From a virus: a DNA stretch of 26,162 nt. The notes below the pieces were generated by a model that worked only from the letters and a program-made list of their open reading frames with translations, was not told where the DNA came from and made no database searches. This document shows positions 4,683 to 26,162 of the stretch, in pieces. The stretch lies in the IMG/VR virus record IMGVR_UViG_3300047494_000027, positions 1-26,162 of that record, one strand, 5' to 3'. How positions within the stretch are numbered: position 1 is the stretch's first letter; every line of letters begins with the position of its first letter. The position numbers and the translations under genes are program-made.

Positions 4683-5269
4683 AAACCGCGCTCCTCGAGT
4701 TCTTTGGCGACCGCCTTCTTCACAGTCAGCCACGTCAGCCGCAGGCGTTCAGCATCCGGCAGAGCACGGTGCAGCGTTGGGGACCGCCCAGTTGCTGTCT
4801 CTTGAGCCTCGCGGACGACTTCCACAGCCCAGGCGGCCAAGTGATTGCGGGTGGCTTCATTGTCCGGCGGCAGCGTGTCCTTGATGGCTGCGAACTCCCG
4901 GCGATAGAGATCGTGGACATGGAGCAGGGCGGGCGTCTCGTCGATGCCTGCGGCCGTCAGGAGCATCTCCAGCCAGTAGGCGTCAAACTCCGGGGCATCC
5001 GAGACTACCACGGACGCCACCGGCGACAGGACGGCGTGGGCGCGTTGAGCCACCTTCGATAGCGGGTAACCGTCGGTGATAAGGGTGGGTAGCGAGATCC
5101 CATGGATCCTTTCGGACTGGAAACTCCACCCTCGTCCGCCGCCGATCCATTCTTCCGGCGGCCGTAGGAGGTAACTTTCCCCATGGCCGAACTCGTCGAC
5201 CCACGCGATTTCGACCGGGAAGCTTCCCTGGCCGAGCGAACTGGCTTCGATGTCCAGGAAATAGATCAT
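4679..5269 (-). CDS. DEDDh-type 3'-5' exonuclease
   Basis: A 196-residue member of the DnaQ/RNase T-like exonuclease superfamily, which removes nucleotides from 3' ends using two metal ions. The catalytic pattern is visible: D6 and E8 in FLDIEAS, D96 within DAPEFDAYWL, and H167-x4-D172 in HRALPDA. A long insertion (residues 28-60) separates Exo I and Exo II. The ATG at 5269 overlaps the stop of the phosphoesterase gene (ATGA). It could trim RNA or DNA ends or degrade host nucleic acid; the substrate cannot be told from sequence. Family confidence is high because all five residues are in order and well spaced. Confidence 0.85.
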   Translation of the reverse strand: MIYFLDIEASSLGQGSFPVEIAWVDEFGHGESYLLRPPEEWIGGGRGWSFQSERIHGISLPTLITDGYPLSKVAQRAHAVLSPVASVVVSDAPEFDAYWLEMLLTAAGIDETPALLHVHDLYRREFAAIKDTLPPDNEATRNHLAAWAVEVVREAQETATGRSPTLHRALPDAERLRLTWLTVKKAVAKELEERGL

Positions 5270-5937
5270 CCCGGAAACCGCCAGATTTCTCCGATGCCGA
5301 GCGCCTTCACCCGGATCCCATTCGACAGCACGGAGACGCCTGAATGATGATGGTGGCCGTGGACAAGCCAGCGGGCACCCACGGCCTCCGCCAGGTCGTC
5401 CAGGACAGAGAAGCCCATATCCTTCCAGACGGATGACGGACCTTCATGGGTCACCAGGACATCTGCCCGCTGTTTTCCGAGCATCTCGACATCTTCCTGC
5501 CAGATGACATCCCGCATGTGCAGCGGCAGCCCGCCCATCCATCGCTGGCGGTTTGCGGCCATCCAGTCCGCGCGGCTCGGATATTTCGGCGGCCCGACTT
5601 TCGGGCTCCACACCCTGCCCTTGAAAACCCCACCGAGACCGGCAGTCCGGACACCCTCGAGGTCGGCCACCTTACCGTGGATGTCCCCGGCGGGATGGCC
5701 GCCCTTATCTCCTGTCAGCCAAAGCAGCTGGTGCGCACCGGCATCGAAATCGTGGTTGCCGATGATGTAGCGGACGTCAAATCCCGCGGCGAACAGCGGC
5801 GCCAGGACGGCGGAGACCGGCGCGGGCAGTTCGAGATCACCGACGATGACGACGGTGCCGACGGGACTGTCGACCAGCGCCAGCAGAGTGCTGAAATCGC
5901 CGTGCGGGTCACCGCAAAAATAGAGAGGTCGAGACAT
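5266..5937 (-). CDS. Calcineurin-like metallophosphoesterase
   Basis: A 223-residue binuclear metal phosphoesterase. Signature blocks occur in order: GDPHGD (9-14), GDLE (33-36), GNHD (60-63), VTHE (162-165) and HGHHHH (193-198). Phage members of this fold act on nucleotides, phosphoproteins or nucleic-acid ends; the substrate here is unknown. I chose the ATG at 5937 because it has GGAG upstream and the protein then begins directly with the first metal-binding strand; an ATG at 5970 would add 11 unremarkable residues. It leads an operon with the DEDDh exonuclease and the 116-residue protein, joined by 4-base overlaps. A TATATA stretch about 100 bases upstream could be its -10 box. Confidence 0.88.
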   Translation of the reverse strand: MSRPLYFCGDPHGDFSTLLALVDSPVGTVVIVGDLELPAPVSAVLAPLFAAGFDVRYIIGNHDFDAGAHQLLWLTGDKGGHPAGDIHGKVADLEGVRTAGLGGVFKGRVWSPKVGPPKYPSRADWMAANRQRWMGGLPLHMRDVIWQEDVEMLGKQRADVLVTHEGPSSVWKDMGFSVLDDLAEAVGARWLVHGHHHHSGVSVLSNGIRVKALGIGEIWRFPG

Positions 5938-6049
5938 GGAAGGCACTCCGGCAGAGACATATGAGGGCATCCGGCTACCCGTGGGTGCCGATCAGACGTG
6001 GATGCCGGGAGATATGCTCTGGTGTGCCATGACTCATATATAGCAGCCC

Positions 6050-6536: not shown

Positions 6537-6914
6537 TCAGGCGGCTTTCGTCTTCATCGGCGTCGTCCGCGTGGCGGAGTAGAACAAAGGGTCAGGCTGG
6601 CTGGACAGCATGAACTTTGCGGCTTTCACTACGTCCGGCCACAGCCGGTCCCTGGTATCCAGAAACCGGTTGCCGTGATCGGAAGCGATGAGTTCTGCGT
6701 ATGCGTCCTGCGTCGCCTGGCAGCATTTGAAGTGATCGTGCGCCGCGCGGAGCCAGCAAAGCTCGCTTGAAGAGTATTCCGGCGCGATGATGGCCTTCTT
6801 GACGGCAGGCAGCCCCTCGCCGTTGATGATCTGGATCAGGCGGATGGCGTTTCGCATGAGAGCCATCGCGTTATCGACGGTGACCTCTTTATTGCAGTGA
6901 AGATAATTGAACAT
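6537..6914 (-). CDS. Hypothetical protein, paralog of the adjacent gene at 6985
   Basis: A 125-residue protein that clearly aligns with its upstream neighbour. Shared blocks include TVDNAxALMRxAxRLIQ, NGEGL, CWxRAAxxxFxCC and RxRLWPD. It lacks the neighbour's extra 70 or so C-terminal residues. The conserved cysteine cluster (FKCCQ) and WLRAAHD suggest a small helical domain, but no named family was recognised. The start at 6914 has AAGGACG upstream; a longer frame would only translate the leader. The pair is best explained by tandem duplication followed by divergence. Confidence 0.75.
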   Translation of the reverse strand: MFNYLHCNKEVTVDNAMALMRNAIRLIQIINGEGLPAVKKAIIAPEYSSSELCWLRAAHDHFKCCQATQDAYAELIASDHGNRFLDTRDRLWPDVVKAAKFMLSSQPDPLFYSATRTTPMKTKAA

Positions 6915-6950
6915 CTGGGCGTCCTTCTGTGTCCGGGTGCATAGGCGGGG

Positions 6951-6976
6951 GCCGCCCGGCATGTTTACCGGGCGGC
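6951..6976 (-). terminator. Intercistronic hairpin (9-bp GC stem)
   Basis: GCCGCCCGG (6951-6959) pairs with CCGGGCGGC (6968-6976) around an 8-base loop, directly after the stop at 6985. Stem sequence is shared with the hairpin at 6506-6528. No T-run follows, so it may be an RNA stability or processing structure instead of a terminator. Confidence 0.5.
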
Positions 6977-6984
6977 GGCAGGCT

Positions 6985-7575
6985 TCAGTCTTCGTCTTCG
7001 ATAGCGATCAAGGGCCAGATCACTTCGCCGTCCGATGTTTCCGTGTGCTCAGCGCGCCACCCCGGCATCTCGATGTCGAAGATCGCCTCCATTCCGCGGA
7101 TTTCTTCTCGCACCTTGTCGGCTTTCAGCCACATCAGATCTCTGATGTCCGCGTTCCCAAACCTATCGACCTCGAACCGGCCCGCAAATTCGACCTCCAG
7201 ACTGGCGATGTTCTTGCCGTGCTCTTCCGACCGATGGAGAAGTGACTGCGTGACGGAACTTTGTTTCAGAATCCACGTCGCCACCTCCACGATATCCGGC
7301 CAGAGCCTCTCCCTTGATTCCGAGAACTGCTCGCCAACCTCTGAGAGCATCAGTTCTCCGTAAAAAGCCACCGTCTCCGGGCAGCATTGGAAGTTCTCGT
7401 AGGCCGCCCTGACCCAGCAAAACTGGTAGGACTCGTAGGTCGGCGCGTGGATAGCTGCCCGGAGGACTTCCAGCCCCTCGCCGTTGACCAGTTGGATGAG
7501 GCGGCAGGCGTCGCGCATCAGCGCAATCGCATTATCGACGGTGGACCCTTCGATGTAGCTCGAAAACGTATTCAT
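6985..7575 (-). CDS. Hypothetical protein with C-terminal acidic extension, paralog of the 6537 gene
   Basis: A 196-residue protein. Residues about 12-108 are homologous to the 125-residue product at 6537-6914 (TVDNAIALMRDACRLIQ, NGEGL, FCWVRAAYENFQCC, RERLWPDIVEVA). The remaining part, about residues 109-196, is unique, with beta-like and acidic stretches (ASLEVEFAGRFEVDRFG, ending AIEDED). The ATG at 7575 is preceded by GGACGTCCACC, like the leaders of the two downstream genes. Function unknown. It may lead a three-gene unit (7575 to 6115) punctuated by hairpins. Confidence 0.75.
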   Translation of the reverse strand: MNTFSSYIEGSTVDNAIALMRDACRLIQLVNGEGLEVLRAAIHAPTYESYQFCWVRAAYENFQCCPETVAFYGELMLSEVGEQFSESRERLWPDIVEVATWILKQSSVTQSLLHRSEEHGKNIASLEVEFAGRFEVDRFGNADIRDLMWLKADKVREEIRGMEAIFDIEMPGWRAEHTETSDGEVIWPLIAIEDED

Positions 7576-7731
7576 GGTGGACGTCCAGTTCTGCTCAGGA
7601 GCCGGACCCGGTTGGGTGCGGTAGTCCTCTACGGACCGGTTGAGCACATACAACCGGATTTGTCCAGGGGGCTAACTCCTCTAAGGTCCACATTCATCAC
7701 AAGCAGTCCGTTTGCATGGGCGATATTGATT

Positions 7732-12153: not shown

Positions 12154-12169
12154 GACTTCAGAAGTCGAC
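12151..12169. promoter_or_regulatory. Perfect 19-bp palindrome at the upstream edge of promoter C
   Basis: GTCGACTTC-A-GAAGTCGAC: two perfect 9-base arms around one base. It overlaps both the last codons of the XRE gene (stop at 12158) and the start of the octamer of promoter C, so GTCGACTTC occurs twice in tandem on the minus strand. Likely a binding site for a dimeric regulator; the adjacent XRE protein or the double-HTH protein are candidates. Confidence 0.5.
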
Positions 12170-12481
12170 GTCGGCGAGGTGCGGCGGAAGCGGCACGAAC
12201 GGCGGCCATCCTCCCACCGGCGGCGGGATCAGACCGGGGCCGCTGGGGAAGACCTGGGCGGCCGTCAGATCAAGAGCCCACAGCGCGCTGGCGGTGATGC
12301 CGACGGACACGGAAGGATCCCCACGTTCGACCTTCCGAAGCGTGGCAGTCGTCACGAACATGCGGGCGGCCAACATTTTCTGTGTCAGCCCCTTTGCCTG
12401 GCGGGCGGTCCGGATGTTGTTGCCTGCGATCTCGAGTGCCTCGGTGACGGCGGCGGGCAGCTTGTCGGTCATCTGGCTCAT
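12158..12481 (-). CDS. XRE-family helix-turn-helix regulator (107 aa)
   Basis: The Cro/CI-type DNA-binding domain covers about residues 19-77: NIRTARQAKGLTQKMLAARM, then TTATLRKVERGDPSVSVG and the closing helix. The C-terminus is short and Pro-rich (PPPVGGWPPFVPLPPHL), with no peptidase or dimerisation domain, so it resembles a small Cro-like repressor or an antitoxin-like protein. I chose the ATG at 12481, with GGAG 8 bases upstream; a TTG at 12496 would add five residues. It is the last gene of the ten-gene operon from 15251 and lies next to a palindrome it may bind. No toxin partner is visible beside it. Confidence 0.82.
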   Translation of the reverse strand: MSQMTDKLPAAVTEALEIAGNNIRTARQAKGLTQKMLAARMFVTTATLRKVERGDPSVSVGITASALWALDLTAAQVFPSGPGLIPPPVGGWPPFVPLPPHLADVDF

Positions 12482-12501
12482 GAGAGAGTTCTCCAATGCG
12501 T

Positions 12502-13010: not shown

Positions 13011-13277
13011 CTAAAGCCACCGAGTTCGGTGCTTCGATCTCTTTGCCGGATCCTTGCCCAGCGCGGCGTTCTTGATGCAGGTCTTGCAGGTTCCCTTCGA
13101 GCTCCAATTATTGCGGGCGATGCTGAAGCTCGAGCCGTTACCCCGGTTCCAACCGTGCGCGCACATGGGCAGAAGGTCATCACCGACGCATCTGTAGAGG
13201 TGCGACACAACGTCGTCCGGGCTATTTCGGCATGCTCCCGAGATGTAGTCGTCGCCAAGATCGATGATGTCGAACAT
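13011..13277 (-). CDS. Putative zinc-binding protein (88 aa)
   Basis: ATG at 13277 shares a base with the TAA of the upstream XRE gene (TAATG). It carries a cysteine set C16, C30, C39 (PMCAHGWNRGNG), then C64-x2-C67 (TCKTC), suggesting one zinc-ribbon or treble-clef fold. The C-terminus is strongly basic (KDPAKRSKHRTRW), so nucleic-acid binding is possible. No named family recognised. The longer frame to 13364 would overlap the XRE gene out of phase and is rejected. Confidence 0.7.
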   Translation of the reverse strand: MFDIIDLGDDYISGACRNSPDDVVSHLYRCVGDDLLPMCAHGWNRGNGSSFSIARNNWSSKGTCKTCIKNAALGKDPAKRSKHRTRWL

Positions 13278-13603
13278 TACGCAGCCCTCCTCTTGTGCAG
13301 AACCGCGATCAAGTCCGCGATGATCTGACGGTGATCCGACGTCAGCTCGGCGAACCGTTTCCACAGCTCGTCGCCCGCCCGGCTGCCGCCAATCTCATCG
13401 GAGACGCCCGAAAGGAAATCGGTGGATACCCCCATAGCTCGGGCCATCCGCACAATATTACCGCCGCTCGGCGTCTGGCGGCCGTTCTCGTATTTGGAGA
13501 TCGCCCCCTGCGGAATGCCAGTTCGATCGGACAACTGCTGCTGGGTGAAACCCCGGAGAAGGCGGGCTTCCTCGACCCGGTGGCCGATTGAGTTATTCAG
13601 CAT
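13277..13603 (-). CDS. XRE-family helix-turn-helix regulator (108 aa)
   Basis: Clear Cro/CI domain at about residues 8-62: HRVEEARLLRGFTQQQLSDRTGIPQG, then ISKYENGRQTPS and the closing IVRMARAMGVSTDFLSG. A short helical C-terminal tail (ELWKRFAELTSDHRQIIADLIAVLHK) may dimerise it, as in many small phage repressors. The ATG at 13603 overlaps the upstream gene by 11 bases. Its position in the middle of an operon, not divergent from a partner, is unusual for a lysogeny switch; a timing regulator is equally possible. Confidence 0.85.
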   Translation of the reverse strand: MLNNSIGHRVEEARLLRGFTQQQLSDRTGIPQGAISKYENGRQTPSGGNIVRMARAMGVSTDFLSGVSDEIGGSRAGDELWKRFAELTSDHRQIIADLIAVLHKRRAA

Positions 13604-14045
13604 CGGAGGTTCCTCCATACAGACGGAGAACCCGTGCCGCGCGGTTATCTCCCCGTGTGTGACGCCAGCCCTCGACGGCGGCATGGTGTTCGGTGTTTGT
13701 GCAGCGGTAGGTCACCTCGCAGTCGGAGACACGGTCGATGGTGCTGGGCCAGCCAGCGGCTGCCAAATCATCCCCATCCGCGAAGGCCACGAACCACGTC
13801 TCGCCGGTGGGCCTATGCAGGACATGATCACCGCAACGGGGCAGCTTCAGGCTGGTCTCATTATCCTTCAGATACTGGTAGATCCTTCCCCCGTGATCCT
13901 CCAAGGCATCATGGGCGTCAGACAGCATGAACTGAAGGTCATAGTCGGATGTCCGCCGCATCGCATCGTTGCAAGCAATCCGAGCATCCCAGATCAGGCT
14001 GCGGACCTTATCGACCGGGTCGGAGCCGTCATTCTGCGTAGTCAT
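13593..14045 (-). CDS. Conserved-type phage protein of unknown function (150 aa)
   Basis: Two ATGs lie six bases apart; the one at 14045 has GAGGAG at good spacing, while that at 14051 is too close to it. The N-terminal half is helical (VDKVRSLIWDARIACNDAM, LSDAHDALEDHGGRIYQYL). The second half begins PRCGDHVLHRPTGETWFVAF and continues GDDLAAAGWPSTIDRVSDCEV. This GD-V-H-PTGE-W pattern is familiar from many unnamed phage proteins. Function unknown. It overlaps the upstream gene by 17 bases. Confidence 0.75.
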   Translation of the reverse strand: MTTQNDGSDPVDKVRSLIWDARIACNDAMRRTSDYDLQFMLSDAHDALEDHGGRIYQYLKDNETSLKLPRCGDHVLHRPTGETWFVAFADGDDLAAAGWPSTIDRVSDCEVTYRCTNTEHHAAVEGWRHTRGDNRAARVLRLYGGTSDAE

Positions 14046-20517: not shown

Positions 20518-21021
20518 CTACAGAACGTTGACCACCGTCCCGGCAGGAACCTTGAAGAACCCGAGGGCGCCCTTGATCCTGATGGGCGTCTGCACCGGCC
20601 GGACGTCGTCCAGGACAAAGCCGTGCGGACCGTCGAACCAAGGTGACGCCGACGACGTGACGCAGTCCGTGACGGTGGCCGTCCCGACGATGTGGCCGCC
20701 CATCGCCCGCAGGTCGCCGATCGTCACCGGCGGCAGCGTGAGTCCCTGGCTCTCCGCGATCCGGCAGCCGTAGTCGAGGTCGTCCGTGAAGACCGGCAGG
20801 CTGAAGGATTTGCTGGCGTGCAGAAGGACCGGGCCGCGGAACCTGGTCGGCCAGCTGCGGTTCTCGATGCGCTTGCCACCATTTAGGATCAGCCACCACC
20901 ATGGACCGCGAATGCTGAGGGCGCGCAACGGAAGTTCGGTGCCGCCGGGGACATGGCGGAACCCCTGAGGATTATGGCCTTCTTGCCTGAGTTCAGCCCC
21001 GGGGGCATATGGCTGGCTCAT
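20518..21021 (-). CDS. ASCH-domain protein (putative RNA-binding or RNA/nucleotide hydrolase, 167 aa)
   Basis: ATG at 21021 overlaps the TGA of the upstream XRE gene (ATGA). After a 30-residue polar leader, the ASCH fold is recognisable: LRALSIRGPWWWLILNGGKR with K50, then ENRSW and RGPVLLHAS (62-70). The last third has the usual beta ending (IKGALGFFKVP). ASCH domains bind RNA or act on modified nucleosides. The neighbouring RNA ligase makes an RNA-processing role plausible. Family identification is good; the reaction is inferred. Confidence 0.8.
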   Translation of the reverse strand: MSQPYAPGAELRQEGHNPQGFRHVPGGTELPLRALSIRGPWWWLILNGGKRIENRSWPTRFRGPVLLHASKSFSLPVFTDDLDYGCRIAESQGLTLPPVTIGDLRAMGGHIVGTATVTDCVTSSASPWFDGPHGFVLDDVRPVQTPIRIKGALGFFKVPAGTVVNVL

Positions 21022-21341
21022 CGGCTCCAGACCTCGATCAGCTGCCGGATCCGGGCCTTGGTGTCCTCCGGCAGCCCGCGATAGCGGTAGTAGACGGCGA
21101 GATCCTCGGCATCCTCGGCCACGTCGGAAACCAGATAGTCGATGGTCGTCCCCAACGCTGCGGCGATCTGCGACAACTTGGCGGCCGATGGACGCGGAGG
21201 GTTCTCGTGCTCCAAGGACCACAGGTAGGACTTGGAGCATCCGGCCGCGATGGCCAGCTTATCCAGTGACAGCCCGCGGGCCTTGCGCCCGGTGCGGATG
21301 CGGTCGCCGATGGGGTTGGGTGTTGCGTTACCGTCGGTCAT
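21018..21341 (-). CDS. XRE-family helix-turn-helix regulator (107 aa)
   Basis: Cro/CI domain at about residues 11-70: IGDRIRTGRKARGLSLDKLA, then AAGCSKSYLWSLEHENPPRPS and IAAALGTTIDYLVSD. A short C-terminal region (YYRYRGLPEDTKARIRQLIEVW) resembles the dimerisation tail of small phage and plasmid repressors. ATG at 21341 overlaps the ligase stop (ATGA). Being second in the ligase operon suggests autoregulation of this RNA-handling module. Confidence 0.85.
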   Translation of the reverse strand: MTDGNATPNPIGDRIRTGRKARGLSLDKLAIAAGCSKSYLWSLEHENPPRPSAAKLSQIAAALGTTIDYLVSDVAEDAEDLAVYYRYRGLPEDTKARIRQLIEVWSR

Positions 21342-21541
21342 GACGCCACCCTCACTCGGCGCTTTCCATCAGCCACAGCCTCAGCGCGCGTCCTGAAAAG
21401 TTCGCCGCCGAGATAGCAACCGCTCCCCTCCGCATAGGAGTACCAGCCTCCGACATCTCCGTCTGAATTACGGAACACGTCGTATCTGGCGGGCTTCACG
21501 GCGGTTTTGATGGTCTCGGTAGTGCCGGTGCCGTCGGTCAT
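21338..21541 (-). other. Possible separate small gene at the ligase C-terminus (67 codons)
   Basis: The in-frame ATG at 21541 has GGAGG 6 bases upstream, and its first bases form ATGA with a TGA of another frame. That frame (GSRDTCHAGAANALREDAA before the TGA) would be the normal end of the ligase if one base were gained or lost near 21595-21620. The product (KPARYDVFRNSDGDVGGWYS, then GELFRTRAEAVADG) is a small beta-rich protein unlike ligase domains. Confidence 0.5.
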
Positions 21542-22666
21542 GCCGCATCCTCCCGCAGCGCGTTGGCCGCCCCGGCGTGGCACGTATCCCGGGAGCCGGT
21601 TGCCCGTCGGTCGGATCTCCCGCCAGATCAGGGATGCCAGCTTGTCCGCGCTGCCCTTCCGGACGGGGAAGATGAACCGGCGCACGGTCTCCGGCACCTC
21701 GTGCAGTGCCAGCCCCAATTCCCTGTCGGTCAGCGCGTCGTATTTGGCGGCCGCCGCCTGGATGTCCGCCGCCATGTGGTTGAACTCGCCCTCCAGCGCG
21801 TGGACGATCGCGTCGAAGTCGGCATGGAATTCCTCGGGCAGATCCCGGCGGACGACATCGAGATCATCACCGGCGACGATCATGCCGTGGACGGCCAGCG
21901 GGGTGCATCGGCTGATCAGGGCATGGATCCGGCAATACTCGGCGCCCTTCGCCTTCAGACGCAGGCCGCCGGAGAACCGGATGACAAATCCTTCCTCGGT
22001 CGGCGGCAGGGCTGCCGTGGCGGCCACGAGTTCGGCGATGGAGCGGTAGGACACCCGGCGGGCGCACCGCCACTCCATGATGCCGCCCAGGTGCTCCAGG
22101 TCGTCCCACTCCAGCTCCCGGCCGTCAGCGTCATAGCCACCAAGGATTACGAGGCCGTCCTCGGGATACGGGACGACGATCCTGTTTGCCGCGTAGACGG
22201 CTTCCAGCAGGTAGGTGGTTCCGGGATCGAGGGACGCCTCCTGCGCAGCGCTCAGGTCGTCCAGGTGCGTCTGCGCCCACGCCGCCTGGTCGGAGAAGAA
22301 GGAACCCTTGGTCGCCGCGCGCCACCGGCCATCATGGTAGAAGACGACGATCAGGCTGCCGTCGACCTTCTCGTAGGCGTCGAAGTGTTCGGCAGGCACG
22401 GAGTGACCGTTCTCGCCGATGTTGAAGAACTTCGGAAACGGAGTGGCGACTACCTCCCGTCTCTTGACGTCCACGATCAGGCCGCGTGCCACCATAGTAA
22501 ACGGCGTCCAAGCCCGCTCGTAGGCGCACTGCTTCGTGTAGCAGAACAGCCGGAGATCGCCGTCGGACGACACCTTGACCATGCCGTCCGCCTCTGCGGC
22601 ATGAAGACCGGCGGCGAGGTCATCAAAGGAATACTGGCGGGCGGGGTGGAGGATTTCTGAGCGCAC
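21338..22666 (-). CDS. T4 Rnl1-like RNA ligase (nucleotidyltransferase), GTG start
   Basis: ATP-dependent RNA ligases seal broken RNA, such as host tRNAs cleaved by anti-phage nucleases. Motif I is KVDGS (100-104, nucleotidyl lysine K100). Also visible are ARGLIVD (60-66), ATKGSF (118-123), motif III TYLLEAVY (151-158), motif IV EEGFVIR (224-230) and motif V LRLKAKG (235-241). The GTG at 22666 has GGGGAG 8 bases upstream. The ligase proper probably ends near residue 352 (LIWREIRP); what follows up to 442 may belong to another gene joined in frame. No polynucleotide kinase is next to it. Family confidence is high; the exact C-terminus is uncertain. Confidence 0.87.
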   Translation of the reverse strand: MRSEILHPARQYSFDDLAAGLHAAEADGMVKVSSDGDLRLFCYTKQCAYERAWTPFTMVARGLIVDVKRREVVATPFPKFFNIGENGHSVPAEHFDAYEKVDGSLIVVFYHDGRWRAATKGSFFSDQAAWAQTHLDDLSAAQEASLDPGTTYLLEAVYAANRIVVPYPEDGLVILGGYDADGRELEWDDLEHLGGIMEWRCARRVSYRSIAELVAATAALPPTEEGFVIRFSGGLRLKAKGAEYCRIHALISRCTPLAVHGMIVAGDDLDVVRRDLPEEFHADFDAIVHALEGEFNHMAADIQAAAAKYDALTDRELGLALHEVPETVRRFIFPVRKGSADKLASLIWREIRPTGNRLPGYVPRRGGQRAAGGCGMTDGTGTTETIKTAVKPARYDVFRNSDGDVGGWYSYAEGSGCYLGGELFRTRAEAVADGKRRVRVAS

Positions 22667-23480: not shown

Positions 23481-25967
23481 CTACCACGGAACCCGCATAT
23501 CCTGCCCGGCGGCGATTGCCGCGATCTCCCAGGCTTCCAGTTCCGGCGTCTCGTCCTCAAGGCTGTCCATGAGAGCCTCGGTATCGCCGCTGTCGTCGAG
23601 GATTTCAGAGTCTGCCGGGCGGATGGCGGGGTCTTCCATGCCCGGAGGCTGATCCGAACCGGCGGAGAAGTAAGGAGCGAACCTCCACCGCGCATCCAAT
23701 CCAATCCTATCTGATACTCCGTGCTTTTGGAGTCCAGAGAGGAAGATATCGGAGTTCCAACGGTATGGGTTCAGGTTGATCTCATCCTGCTCGGCACATG
23801 CCGCCTCGAACTGCGAGAGGAATTCGGCGATGTCATCAAACTTCTCCGCCATCGCCGTCGCGCAGTTTAATGAGTTGCGCAGGCTCCGTGGTGCGTCGGG
23901 ACGCATTAACGCCATCGGCGCGTATCCGAGTTGGTTTAACGCATACCGGAGCATCCTGCTCGGCTCGTCGCAGGTCTGACCGGCGTAAGCCAGGGACTGG
24001 AGTGACTCGCCGAGGTGCCACATCGCCGCCTTGCTTCCGGGGCCTACGTGATCTTTCTCGGCATGCCGCAGGAGGACGTCGCACACCTTGCCGACTTCCC
24101 TGGTGGCTTCGGCGGAGATCAGGCTCACCGCGTCTGCCGAGACACCGAACTTCTCGGCGATGAACGCGAATGCGTCCACATCCTGTGGCTGGACCGCAAG
24201 CGTGGCGATCGCGCAGATATCCTGCATTTCATGGCGGCCGTAGAGGGGGCTGGTGTCGATGAGCGGCAGGCCAGCCGCATCCATTTCTTCGACGGAAATC
24301 TGATCGCCGTGGGTGCCTGTATCAAGCAGCGGCTGCCCGTTTCCGCGTGCCATCCGCTTGTTGTTTTTGTAGCGCGTCCTGCTGATACCCAAGGCGACCC
24401 ACGGTTGGCGGTTCTCCTCCGAGTTCTCACGCCGCTGCGCCATCGTCGGGATCCCCTTGGCACGGCGCCGGAGATAATGCCGGATCGGCTCGTTGCAAAT
24501 CGATGTGTCTCCAAGGGCAACCATTTCTTCCTCGGTGATTCCGAGCATCTCGATCGCCGTCGCTTTGAAGTAGCCGTAGCGGGCCGCATCGACCTTGTAT
24601 GTATTGCCGCCCACCGTGTAATCCGGCGGCACGATCCCGTCGGCGTCGTCTACGGCTCGCCTGAGCACCGCATGCTCGCAGCTACCGGCCCAACCGCTTT
24701 CAATCGCGGCGAAACCTCCGGCGATCAGGGGTGAGCAATACTCCCGGACCATTTCAGGGACTCGGCCGACATCGAAAAGGTAAGTCATCGCCGACGACAC
24801 GAGCATCATGAAAGGATTACGCAAGCCGACGGGCACTCCACCGGCGGCCGCCCAGATGCTGTCGTGCTCGACACGGTAGGCCACCAGCCGGGGGAGTTCG
24901 AGAAGGAAACGGGCACGCCAGATGTTACGGTTGACCTTTATGTTGCGGGATGTCGCCATAAGGCTGTCCAGGCGTTCGATCAGAGCTTCCTGCGGCGAGT
25001 TGCCGTCCCAAGGTGCGAGAACGATGTTAAGCGGCTCGCGCTCCCACTTCTGCGGCGTCTTATCGCCACGGACCGCATTGACGGCCACAGCGCGAGCCAT
25101 CTTACGGGCGGCTTTCTGTTCAGCGGTCAACTGACGGCCGGACATGGTTACCGTAACCGGGAGTTCCTCGAGGAGACGTTCCATGTCCACGACGCCGGTG
25201 CCGCAGATCATCCCATAGCGGCGATCCCCGGGGAACGGATCCGCCATGCCGGTGAAGACCGGGCGTGCCGTGTACACGGGCTGATTCCAAACCCCGACCT
25301 GGGGATCCACAACGCGAGCACCGATCTCGACTTGGGCGCCCAGCGTCTCCAGGCGAGCGATGGTATGTACCCGCAGGCGGTTCAGCATTGACTTCCTCTC
25401 GGCCTCGGTCGTCGACCGCGACAGCCAGAAGCGGAAATGTGCACCAAGCGTCTCCGGGGAGGCATCCTCGGCCAGCGGGCGGCCATCCTGTCCGGCGACG
25501 CAGGTGGAGGAGGACCACTGCCAGCTGAAGCCCGTGTCCTGCATTTCCTTTGGAAACAGGCTGAGCAGGAAGGCAAGCGCGGCGGCAGGATCGCGGCGGG
25601 GATCGATCTTGAAGTGGTTCGGGATCTTATCGAGGTCACAGATCAGCCAGTAGCGAGGTCCGTCTACCAGACCGCGTGGTGTTGCCCTGGTCTTCCTGCC
25701 CTTATTGTCGACACCGGCGGGTTTGTAGGATTTCGCACGAGTGATGGATGACCCGGCCTCTGGGGCAATGTTGCCGCCGACAATGTAGCCGACGCCATCC
25801 AAACCTTCGCAAATACGAACGCACTGGACATGCATTGTCGGCAGATCGGACACCGGCAACGCAATAGGATCGAAATAGGTGCCGCAATGGTAAGGCTTCA
25901 CGTCCACTGTGCCGTCGGCGTTGACGGTGATCGTCTTGTTTGCGGAGAACTTCGCCCCAACGCGCAT
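23481..25967 (-). CDS. Large replication protein with archaeo-eukaryotic-primase-like motifs
   Basis: An 828-residue protein. The N-terminal part shows the order expected of an AEP primase: a hydrophobic strand with LICDLDKI (metal-binding D111, D113), FSWQWSSS then GAHFRFWLS (H177) and a third acidic position in VVDPQVGVW (D221), followed by NQPVYTARPVF. No Walker A motif was seen in the rest, so a fused helicase is not evident. The middle and C-terminal regions are helical, with a possible helix-turn-helix (GISRTRYKNNKRMARG) and a strongly acidic end. Likely role: primer synthesis or replication initiation. Start is uncertain: the same frame is open upstream of the ATG as far as TAA at 26097-26099, without an obvious start codon or ribosome site. 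Confidence 0.6.
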   Translation of the reverse strand: MRVGAKFSANKTITVNADGTVDVKPYHCGTYFDPIALPVSDLPTMHVQCVRICEGLDGVGYIVGGNIAPEAGSSITRAKSYKPAGVDNKGRKTRATPRGLVDGPRYWLICDLDKIPNHFKIDPRRDPAAALAFLLSLFPKEMQDTGFSWQWSSSTCVAGQDGRPLAEDASPETLGAHFRFWLSRSTTEAERKSMLNRLRVHTIARLETLGAQVEIGARVVDPQVGVWNQPVYTARPVFTGMADPFPGDRRYGMICGTGVVDMERLLEELPVTVTMSGRQLTAEQKAARKMARAVAVNAVRGDKTPQKWEREPLNIVLAPWDGNSPQEALIERLDSLMATSRNIKVNRNIWRARFLLELPRLVAYRVEHDSIWAAAGGVPVGLRNPFMMLVSSAMTYLFDVGRVPEMVREYCSPLIAGGFAAIESGWAGSCEHAVLRRAVDDADGIVPPDYTVGGNTYKVDAARYGYFKATAIEMLGITEEEMVALGDTSICNEPIRHYLRRRAKGIPTMAQRRENSEENRQPWVALGISRTRYKNNKRMARGNGQPLLDTGTHGDQISVEEMDAAGLPLIDTSPLYGRHEMQDICAIATLAVQPQDVDAFAFIAEKFGVSADAVSLISAEATREVGKVCDVLLRHAEKDHVGPGSKAAMWHLGESLQSLAYAGQTCDEPSRMLRYALNQLGYAPMALMRPDAPRSLRNSLNCATAMAEKFDDIAEFLSQFEAACAEQDEINLNPYRWNSDIFLSGLQKHGVSDRIGLDARWRFAPYFSAGSDQPPGMEDPAIRPADSEILDDSGDTEALMDSLEDETPELEAWEIAAIAAGQDMRVPW

Positions 25968-26162
25968 GAGCAGGATGTGGTCGACGGCGGCAGGCGCGCC
26001 GGACGGCAGGATGTCGTCGTCCTGAGACGAAACGTCTGTCGGAACGTAGCCGATGAGTGAGGTGGACCCCAGAACCTGGACAGGAAACGGTGCGACTTAA
26101 GAGAGAGTCTCGCCGGTTTCCAAGGCCCCCTCACCGATCCAGAGGGGTTCAACAATTCGTAT

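Follow-up and report, generated by a model that had tools for sequence, protein, structure and literature searches.

The Rep protein of plasmid ColE2 binds its own origin and makes a primer that DNA polymerase I extends (PMC4538821), and according to PMC4980987 the origin, Rep, polymerase I, and SSB suffice for the reaction in vitro. ColE2 Rep has no NTPase domain, yet the DNA is opened by its PriCT-1 and HTH parts (PMC5862659). That paper gives the same order, an archaeo-eukaryotic primase (AEP) domain followed by PriCT and HTH parts with no ATPase domain, for ColE2 Rep, RepE/RepS, and PrimHYQ; it describes no helicase in the elements that carry RepE/RepS and PrimHYQ primases and puts the primase-encoding dsDNA viruses that have no replicative helicase at only ~2%. 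The whole ColE2-type Reps that we compared are 295 to 437 residues long, and the protein described below is longer.

This protein is encoded on a virus record that makes up the whole stretch of DNA analyzed (the window; 26,162 bases), so that the right edge of the window is also the end of the record. Terminase and portal genes on the fragment indicate a tailed phage, and the portal gene is truncated at the left end of the record, which is a 26 kb piece. The annotated primase frame (828 codons) runs from an ATG at 25967 to a stop at 23481 to 23483. Residues are numbered in the 871-codon open frame (from the upstream TAA onward) or in the 828 codons from the annotated ATG. The gene and its AEP features are as follows.

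23481 to 25967, minus strand: annotated primase gene (828 codons from the ATG; open frame; PHROG_16950 match at E 6.7e-5)
26097 to 26099, minus strand: in-frame TAA upstream of the primase gene, read from the sequence
25197 to 25982, minus strand: AEP primase domain (residues 39 to 300 of the 871-codon frame; BLAST, profile, model, and structure matches)
25629 to 25637, minus strand: AEP motif I, D-L-D (frame residues 154 and 156; both Asp invariant in 38/38 aligned sequences)
25437 to 25445, minus strand: AEP motif II, G-A-H (frame residue His 220, conserved in at least 90% of 38 sequences)
25305 to 25310, minus strand: AEP motif III, V-D (Asp 264 of the frame; invariant in 38/38)

Several other genes of the fragment, all on the minus strand, drew our attention. 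Downstream of the primase lies a T4 Rnl1-like RNA ligase (21338 to 22666; PHROG_562, E 1.1e-54), for which exact patterns found no relative in IMG/VR. The neighboring frames at 6537 to 6962 and 6985 to 7653 encode proteins of unknown function that align as clearly related, as after a tandem duplication, and neither has a PHROG match at E 0.01. Three genes (12158 to 12496, 13277 to 13684, and 21018 to 21341) match phage repressor or transcriptional regulator families. The gene at 20518 to 21240 has a strong match to PHROG_3193, a family of unknown function, and an ASCH-like domain (PF04266, E 9.4e-4, slightly below the curated cut-off); that at 5266 to 5970 is metallo-phosphoesterase-like (PHROG_1649, E 2.3e-11).

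On its motifs and modeled fold, the N-terminal domain of the primase is an AEP, with a predicted capacity for primer synthesis. The original prediction had read AEP motifs in this part of the protein, and motifs I to III are indeed present: hhhDhD/E as WLICDLD, sxH (as worded in the available text of PMC5862659, with "s" taken as a small residue) as GAH, and hD/E as VD. An arginine of motif IV is given in the same text as a motif of the PrimPol-PV1 supergroup. The HMM search that had been proposed returned the PHROG_16950 "DNA primase" family over the AEP part only, at E 6.7e-5 and 2.8e-5 in two runs. Pfam and NCBIfam named nothing credible in the N-terminal domain, and NCBIfam and PDB sequence searches with the primase gave chance-level matches only. 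Its counterpart on a Skermanella plasmid was found at E 3e-3 in the plasmid search and at E 9e-13 by pairwise BLASTP, and in an alignment the acids are common to the window protein, the Skermanella and Roseomonas plasmid proteins, and three T5-type origin-binding proteins.

Two profile scans collected 41 relatives, 21 loci in IMG/VR and 20 in genome contigs, most of the latter alphaproteobacterial by their record titles. The alignment holds 37 of these loci and the window protein (38 rows), L030, L032, L038, and L046 having been dropped as near duplicates; all 38 aligned members match PHROG_16950 at E <= 0.001. K25, R91, D125, D127, D235, and R264 (aligned-piece numbering) are invariant in the 38 rows, as is a QPxYxAxP stretch, the latter by construction, that pattern having served to find the loci. 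With the window row left out of the profile, the window protein scored 109 bits, versus at most 6.8 for 5,000 shuffles; the loci had been picked by similarity to a profile containing the window, so this score is support rather than independent discovery. Close relatives of the whole protein were found neither in phage records at E 1e-5, nor in IMG/VR by exact patterns or a two-row profile, nor in genome contigs by exact patterns, and plasmids gave only the partial Skermanella match.

An AlphaFold2 model built on the alignment of the 37 relatives and the window protein had pLDDT values of mostly 85 to 97 over the AEP part (residues 11 to 280), with 69 to 75 at residues 91 to 110. Past the AEP domain the model was poor (block means mostly 40 to 57), and a single-sequence folding model was of no use (pLDDT 33.6). 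Foldseek matches in the PDB were led by AEPs (LigD polymerase and ASFV PrimPol), the best at E 3.7e-3 and none reaching 0.001. The best VIA-align match was cyanophage S-2L PrimPol (Z 7.2, below 8; rmsd 3.7 over 154 residues), and ranks 1 to 49 of the 50 rows are AEPs or primase complexes by title; rank 50 is not. A viral structure library gave 30 matches at E <= 0.001 (best 2.2e-11), the third of which is a phage replication origin binding protein. The scores are middling and the match lists consistent; with AEPs leading both the Foldseek and the VIA-align lists, the structure search agrees with the predicted AEP fold, and the modeled domain is of that kind.

The same AEP domain, at 19 to 26% identity and with all invariant residues in common, occurs in the PHROG_16950 AEPs of phages, bacterial genomes, and plasmids (Skermanella pSR-5, Roseomonas, and IMG/VR loci). 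Unlike the window protein, these relatives end after the AEP domain or carry other C-terminal regions, many with a P-loop. A plasmid record filed as Bacillus safensis (NZ_CP015609, L005) encodes a primase whose start is almost identical over the compared stretch to that on a Roseomonas mucosa plasmid (L003); this near identity points to a possible misassignment or contamination. T5-type "replication origin binding" proteins (PHROG_3712) have an AEP that can be aligned with that of the window protein, with the same Asp residues; 25 of the 38 aligned members match PHROG_3712, whereas the window's own row does not at E 0.001. The T5-type proteins carry a GTGKT Walker A motif and the window protein has none; one that was tested matches Herpes_ori_bp.

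Beyond the AEP domain, the protein divides into two regions.

24354 to 24914, minus strand: PriCT/HTH-like putative initiator module (residues 352 to 538 from the ATG; Thioclava match at E 2e-7, RepB profile, and Halomonas Rep)
23484 to 24350, minus strand: C-terminal region (residues 540 to 828; matched nothing)

A plasmid search with residues 290 to 556 returned only three records at E <= 1, each a weak match by itself (E 0.2 to 0.7). Two encode RepB-like primases of Thioclava; the third, a Halomonas plasmid, encodes a ColE2-type Rep that matches at 45% over 40 aa (E 0.2). Pairwise, a Thioclava plasmid primase aligns over residues 352 to 538 at E 2e-7. When residues 256 to 828 were compared by BLAST with the 41 relatives and five other proteins (Skermanella, Thioclava, Rhizobium phage, Roseomonas, and Falsihalocynthiibacter), only the Thioclava protein matched (E 1.4e-5). 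A profile of six other plasmid RepB primases, which leaves out Thioclava and serves as a test independent of its selection, scored 13.1 bits at residues 461 to 534 versus at most 8.7 and beat 5,000 of 5,000 shuffles; this match takes in the linker and the first part of the putative HTH, and the PriCT-like part lies outside it. Plasmid RepB-type primases (Thioclava, Nitrosomonas, Xanthomonas, and others), several of them annotated in their records as RepB-domain or HTH proteins, consist, as read here, of an AEP domain, then a PriCT-like part, then an HTH, and match window residues 352 to 538 or 461 to 534. They differ in two respects: their AEP is of another family (0/8 among the 12 best listed for the window family's AEP profile), and they total 437 to 535 residues, with no C-terminal extension comparable to that of the window protein. 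One ColE2-type Rep stands among those 12 best, at 4.7 bits, which is in the shuffle range. A Rhizobium phage TM27A protein, found via the Thioclava protein, was set aside; it is not among the same 12.

Other searches with the second half gave less. Pfam reported no Replicase, PriCT_1, or HTH in the window protein, whereas the Halomonas Rep matches Replicase (PF03090) at 4.3e-28. Compared with ColE2 Rep (3vw4), the HTH piece gave E 0.8, ranked after DNA polymerase IV chains (~0.5); a match of the module profile to 3vw4 at 1.1e-16 was discounted, as that profile itself contains a ColE2-type Rep. A two-row HTH alignment found no match in 385 genomes from the class to which G001 (Paramagnetospirillum) belongs, a search that had no positive control; two weak matches (E 0.2 to 0.3) came from two of three genomes searched. 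When the collected loci were searched by tblastn with the second half, a few matches at E 1.2 to 4.5, taken as chance, came up in addition to the Halomonas locus and the two from Thioclava, and a match in faecal phage MT836991 (E 0.4) was rejected because its frame reads as a UvrD-like helicase. For residues 540 to 828 there was no Pfam match, and the C-terminal 287 residues alone found plasmid matches only at E 2 or worse; in phage records they were queried as part of the whole protein. Taken by their sequence, residues 352 to 538 resemble the post-AEP part of plasmid RepB-type initiator primases, ending in an HTH, and may act in a similar way.

The original prediction also noted the lack of a visible helicase, and the protein indeed has no match to the Walker A pattern [AG]xxxxGK[ST] and no helicase domain by Pfam. 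The pattern occurs at three places in the window's stop-to-stop frames of at least 60 aa, only the terminase one being in an identified gene. Because short AEPs of 240 to 430 residues that stand alone, with no fused helicase, make up 12 of the 41 relatives (L014 and L038 among them look like one protein), the missing helicase is less odd than first thought. The other 29 measure 685 to 1,258 residues, including one that runs off its contig. Among the viral relatives, 11 of 21 contain a strict P-loop pattern; among the genomic ones, 6 of 20 contain a somewhat broader version. The strict pattern misses at least one P-loop-like stretch, in L015. These counts bear on an alternative that we regard as tentative, in which the protein is a stand-alone AEP primase, a helicase is supplied from elsewhere (by the phage beyond the record or as host DnaB), and the C-terminal half binds DNA or partners with no opening of the duplex. 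The truncated record is consistent with this alternative, since the phage may encode a helicase outside the recovered piece, as are the short AEPs, three of which (L013, L023, and L037) directly adjoin a P-loop gene. The resemblance of the half after the AEP domain to plasmid initiator primases argues against it, as does the finding by BLAST that the second half of the window protein occurs in 0/41 relatives. We favor, on balance and with limited conviction, the reading of the protein as an initiator primase of a tailed phage, in which an AEP domain is joined to a PriCT/HTH-like module as in ColE2 Rep and translation starts upstream of the annotated ATG. The poor model of the second part weighs against this initiator reading and leaves the module to be judged from its sequence. 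Also against it count the empty Pfam result for Replicase, PriCT_1, and HTH, the RepB profile match confined to residues 461 to 534, the weakness of the three plasmid matches, the rank of 3vw4 behind DNA polymerase IV chains, the 385-genome search, the middling structure scores, and the ordinary energy of the AGGA described below.

The start of the gene bears on the same reading, and three further features are relevant to it.

25968 to 26012, minus strand: probable N-terminal extension of ~15 codons (coding signal, modeled strand, relatives' starts, and Skermanella alignment)
26010 to 26012 (ATC) and 26007 to 26009 (CTG), minus strand: candidate start codons, the exact codon being a prediction
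26020 to 26023, minus strand: AGGA ahead of the ATC and CTG, weak as a ribosome site

Upstream of the ATG, the original prediction described 43 open codons of gene-like sequence with no start codon. The 43 codons that separate the ATG from the TAA at 26097 to 26099 are open and include no ATG, GTG, or TTG. Stop-free stretches of this length are not unusual (8,600 of 20,000 random stretches from the window, or 43%), and in a second random draw 1,837 of 8,696 stop-free stretches also had no ATG, GTG, or TTG. The description as gene-like is clear for the inner part only: up to about residue 24 of the 871-codon frame the codon-preference score is mixed (-2.5 to +2.3 in blocks of 8 codons), and from there on it is positive. 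This score is itself noisy and falls to -2.9 within the primase gene, at residues 92 to 99.

Comparison with homologs places the start farther upstream. An ATG, GTG, or TTG lies at least 4 residues upstream of the annotated-ATG column in all 37 aligned relatives, and so does the listed start with the best ribosome-site energy (37/37); some start codon at or below that column and before the conserved Lys is also present in 13 of the 37. In the model, the annotated ATG is residue 15 of the folded piece and thus the sixth of the seven residues of the first AEP beta-strand (10 to 16), which corresponds to residues 39 to 45 of the open frame; the extension would encode most of this strand. Because the ATG lies within the first AEP strand and all 37 relatives start upstream of it, it is probably not the true start. 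The Skermanella BLAST alignment begins at residue 39 of the open frame, five residues upstream of the Met. Translation from the annotated ATG, with the upstream frame open by chance, appears improbable to us: the frequency of stop-free stretches would allow it, and the local profile alignment starts only at residue 45, one residue past the annotated Met, but the position of the ATG in the strand argues against it, the ATG has no ribosome site (+0.4 kcal/mol), and in 0/37 aligned relatives does the best-ribosome-site start fall at or below the ATG column. A longer N terminus with an unusual start, as first proposed, is thus supported, although it is not proven.

The N terminus is probably ~15 residues longer and begins at a rare start codon, or else an error close to where the record stops has erased a standard one. 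In the first case, translation would most likely begin at the nonstandard ATC (residue 29 of the open frame) or CTG (residue 30), at 26007 to 26012, and would complete the first AEP beta-strand. Translation table 11 also permits CTG and ATC starts. The coding score turns positive just before these codons, at ~24, and the AGGA site has an anti-SD energy of -4.0 kcal/mol, a value as low in 40% of 2,000 random sites (20-mers). In the second case, an assembly or sequencing error in the last 200 bases, or a real mutation, would have removed the standard start. This is a real possibility, if short of an even one: the start region is only 150 to 195 bases from the end of the record, and many relatives have a standard start 4 to 9 residues upstream of the ATG column, where the window has neither an ATG, GTG, or TTG nor a good ribosome site. 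Against such damage stand the ATC and CTG behind the AGGA, near the onset of the coding signal, and the open remainder of the frame. Recoding would fuse the frame to a longer protein encoded upstream, by read-through of the TAA at 26097 or by a frameshift, and is in our judgment very improbable. It is compatible with the 63 bases beyond the TAA, where the frame stays open as far as the record goes and the coding score is for the most part weakly positive; against it, the score is mixed between the TAA and about residue 23, and 63 bases do not suffice for a judgment. Two copies of a 14-nt sequence (25970 to 25983 and 26006 to 26019, 36 nt apart, 93% alike) flank the proposed start. The pair was considered as an iteron and set aside: at a spacing within 60 nt, the window has 2 pairs of this kind, and simulation of six windows gave 3, 0, 0, 0, 0, and 0.

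In the initiator reading that we favor, the HTH would bind the origin, by analogy with ColE2 Rep, and the PriCT/HTH part, which stands after the AEP domain in place of a helicase, would open the duplex with no ATPase. The N-terminal AEP domain of the same protein would then lay the first primer, which a host polymerase would extend. The original prediction suggested an uncommon replication strategy. As a strategy it is not new, helicase-free AEP-PriCT-HTH proteins having already been described, and the window protein is a variant of these known initiator primases; what sets it apart is its C-terminal half, which is found in none of the 41 family relatives. The combination is new in this data: the AEP family otherwise stands alone or with other C termini, and here it is joined to an initiator-type module and a C-terminal region. 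The available parts of PMC5862659, PMC4538821, and PMC4980987 do not describe this combination, which is too little to claim its absence from print. A doubtful extension is that, in a phage AEP lineage with relatives that stand alone or bear helicase-like regions, a PriCT/HTH module and a new 290-residue domain have come to occupy that place, giving a tailed phage in which a single motor-free protein opens and primes the origin. If the origin is opened with no motor, the trick of plasmid ColE2 would have arisen again in another primase family, and, if true, this would offer a system for testing how a phage starts replication without a helicase of its own.
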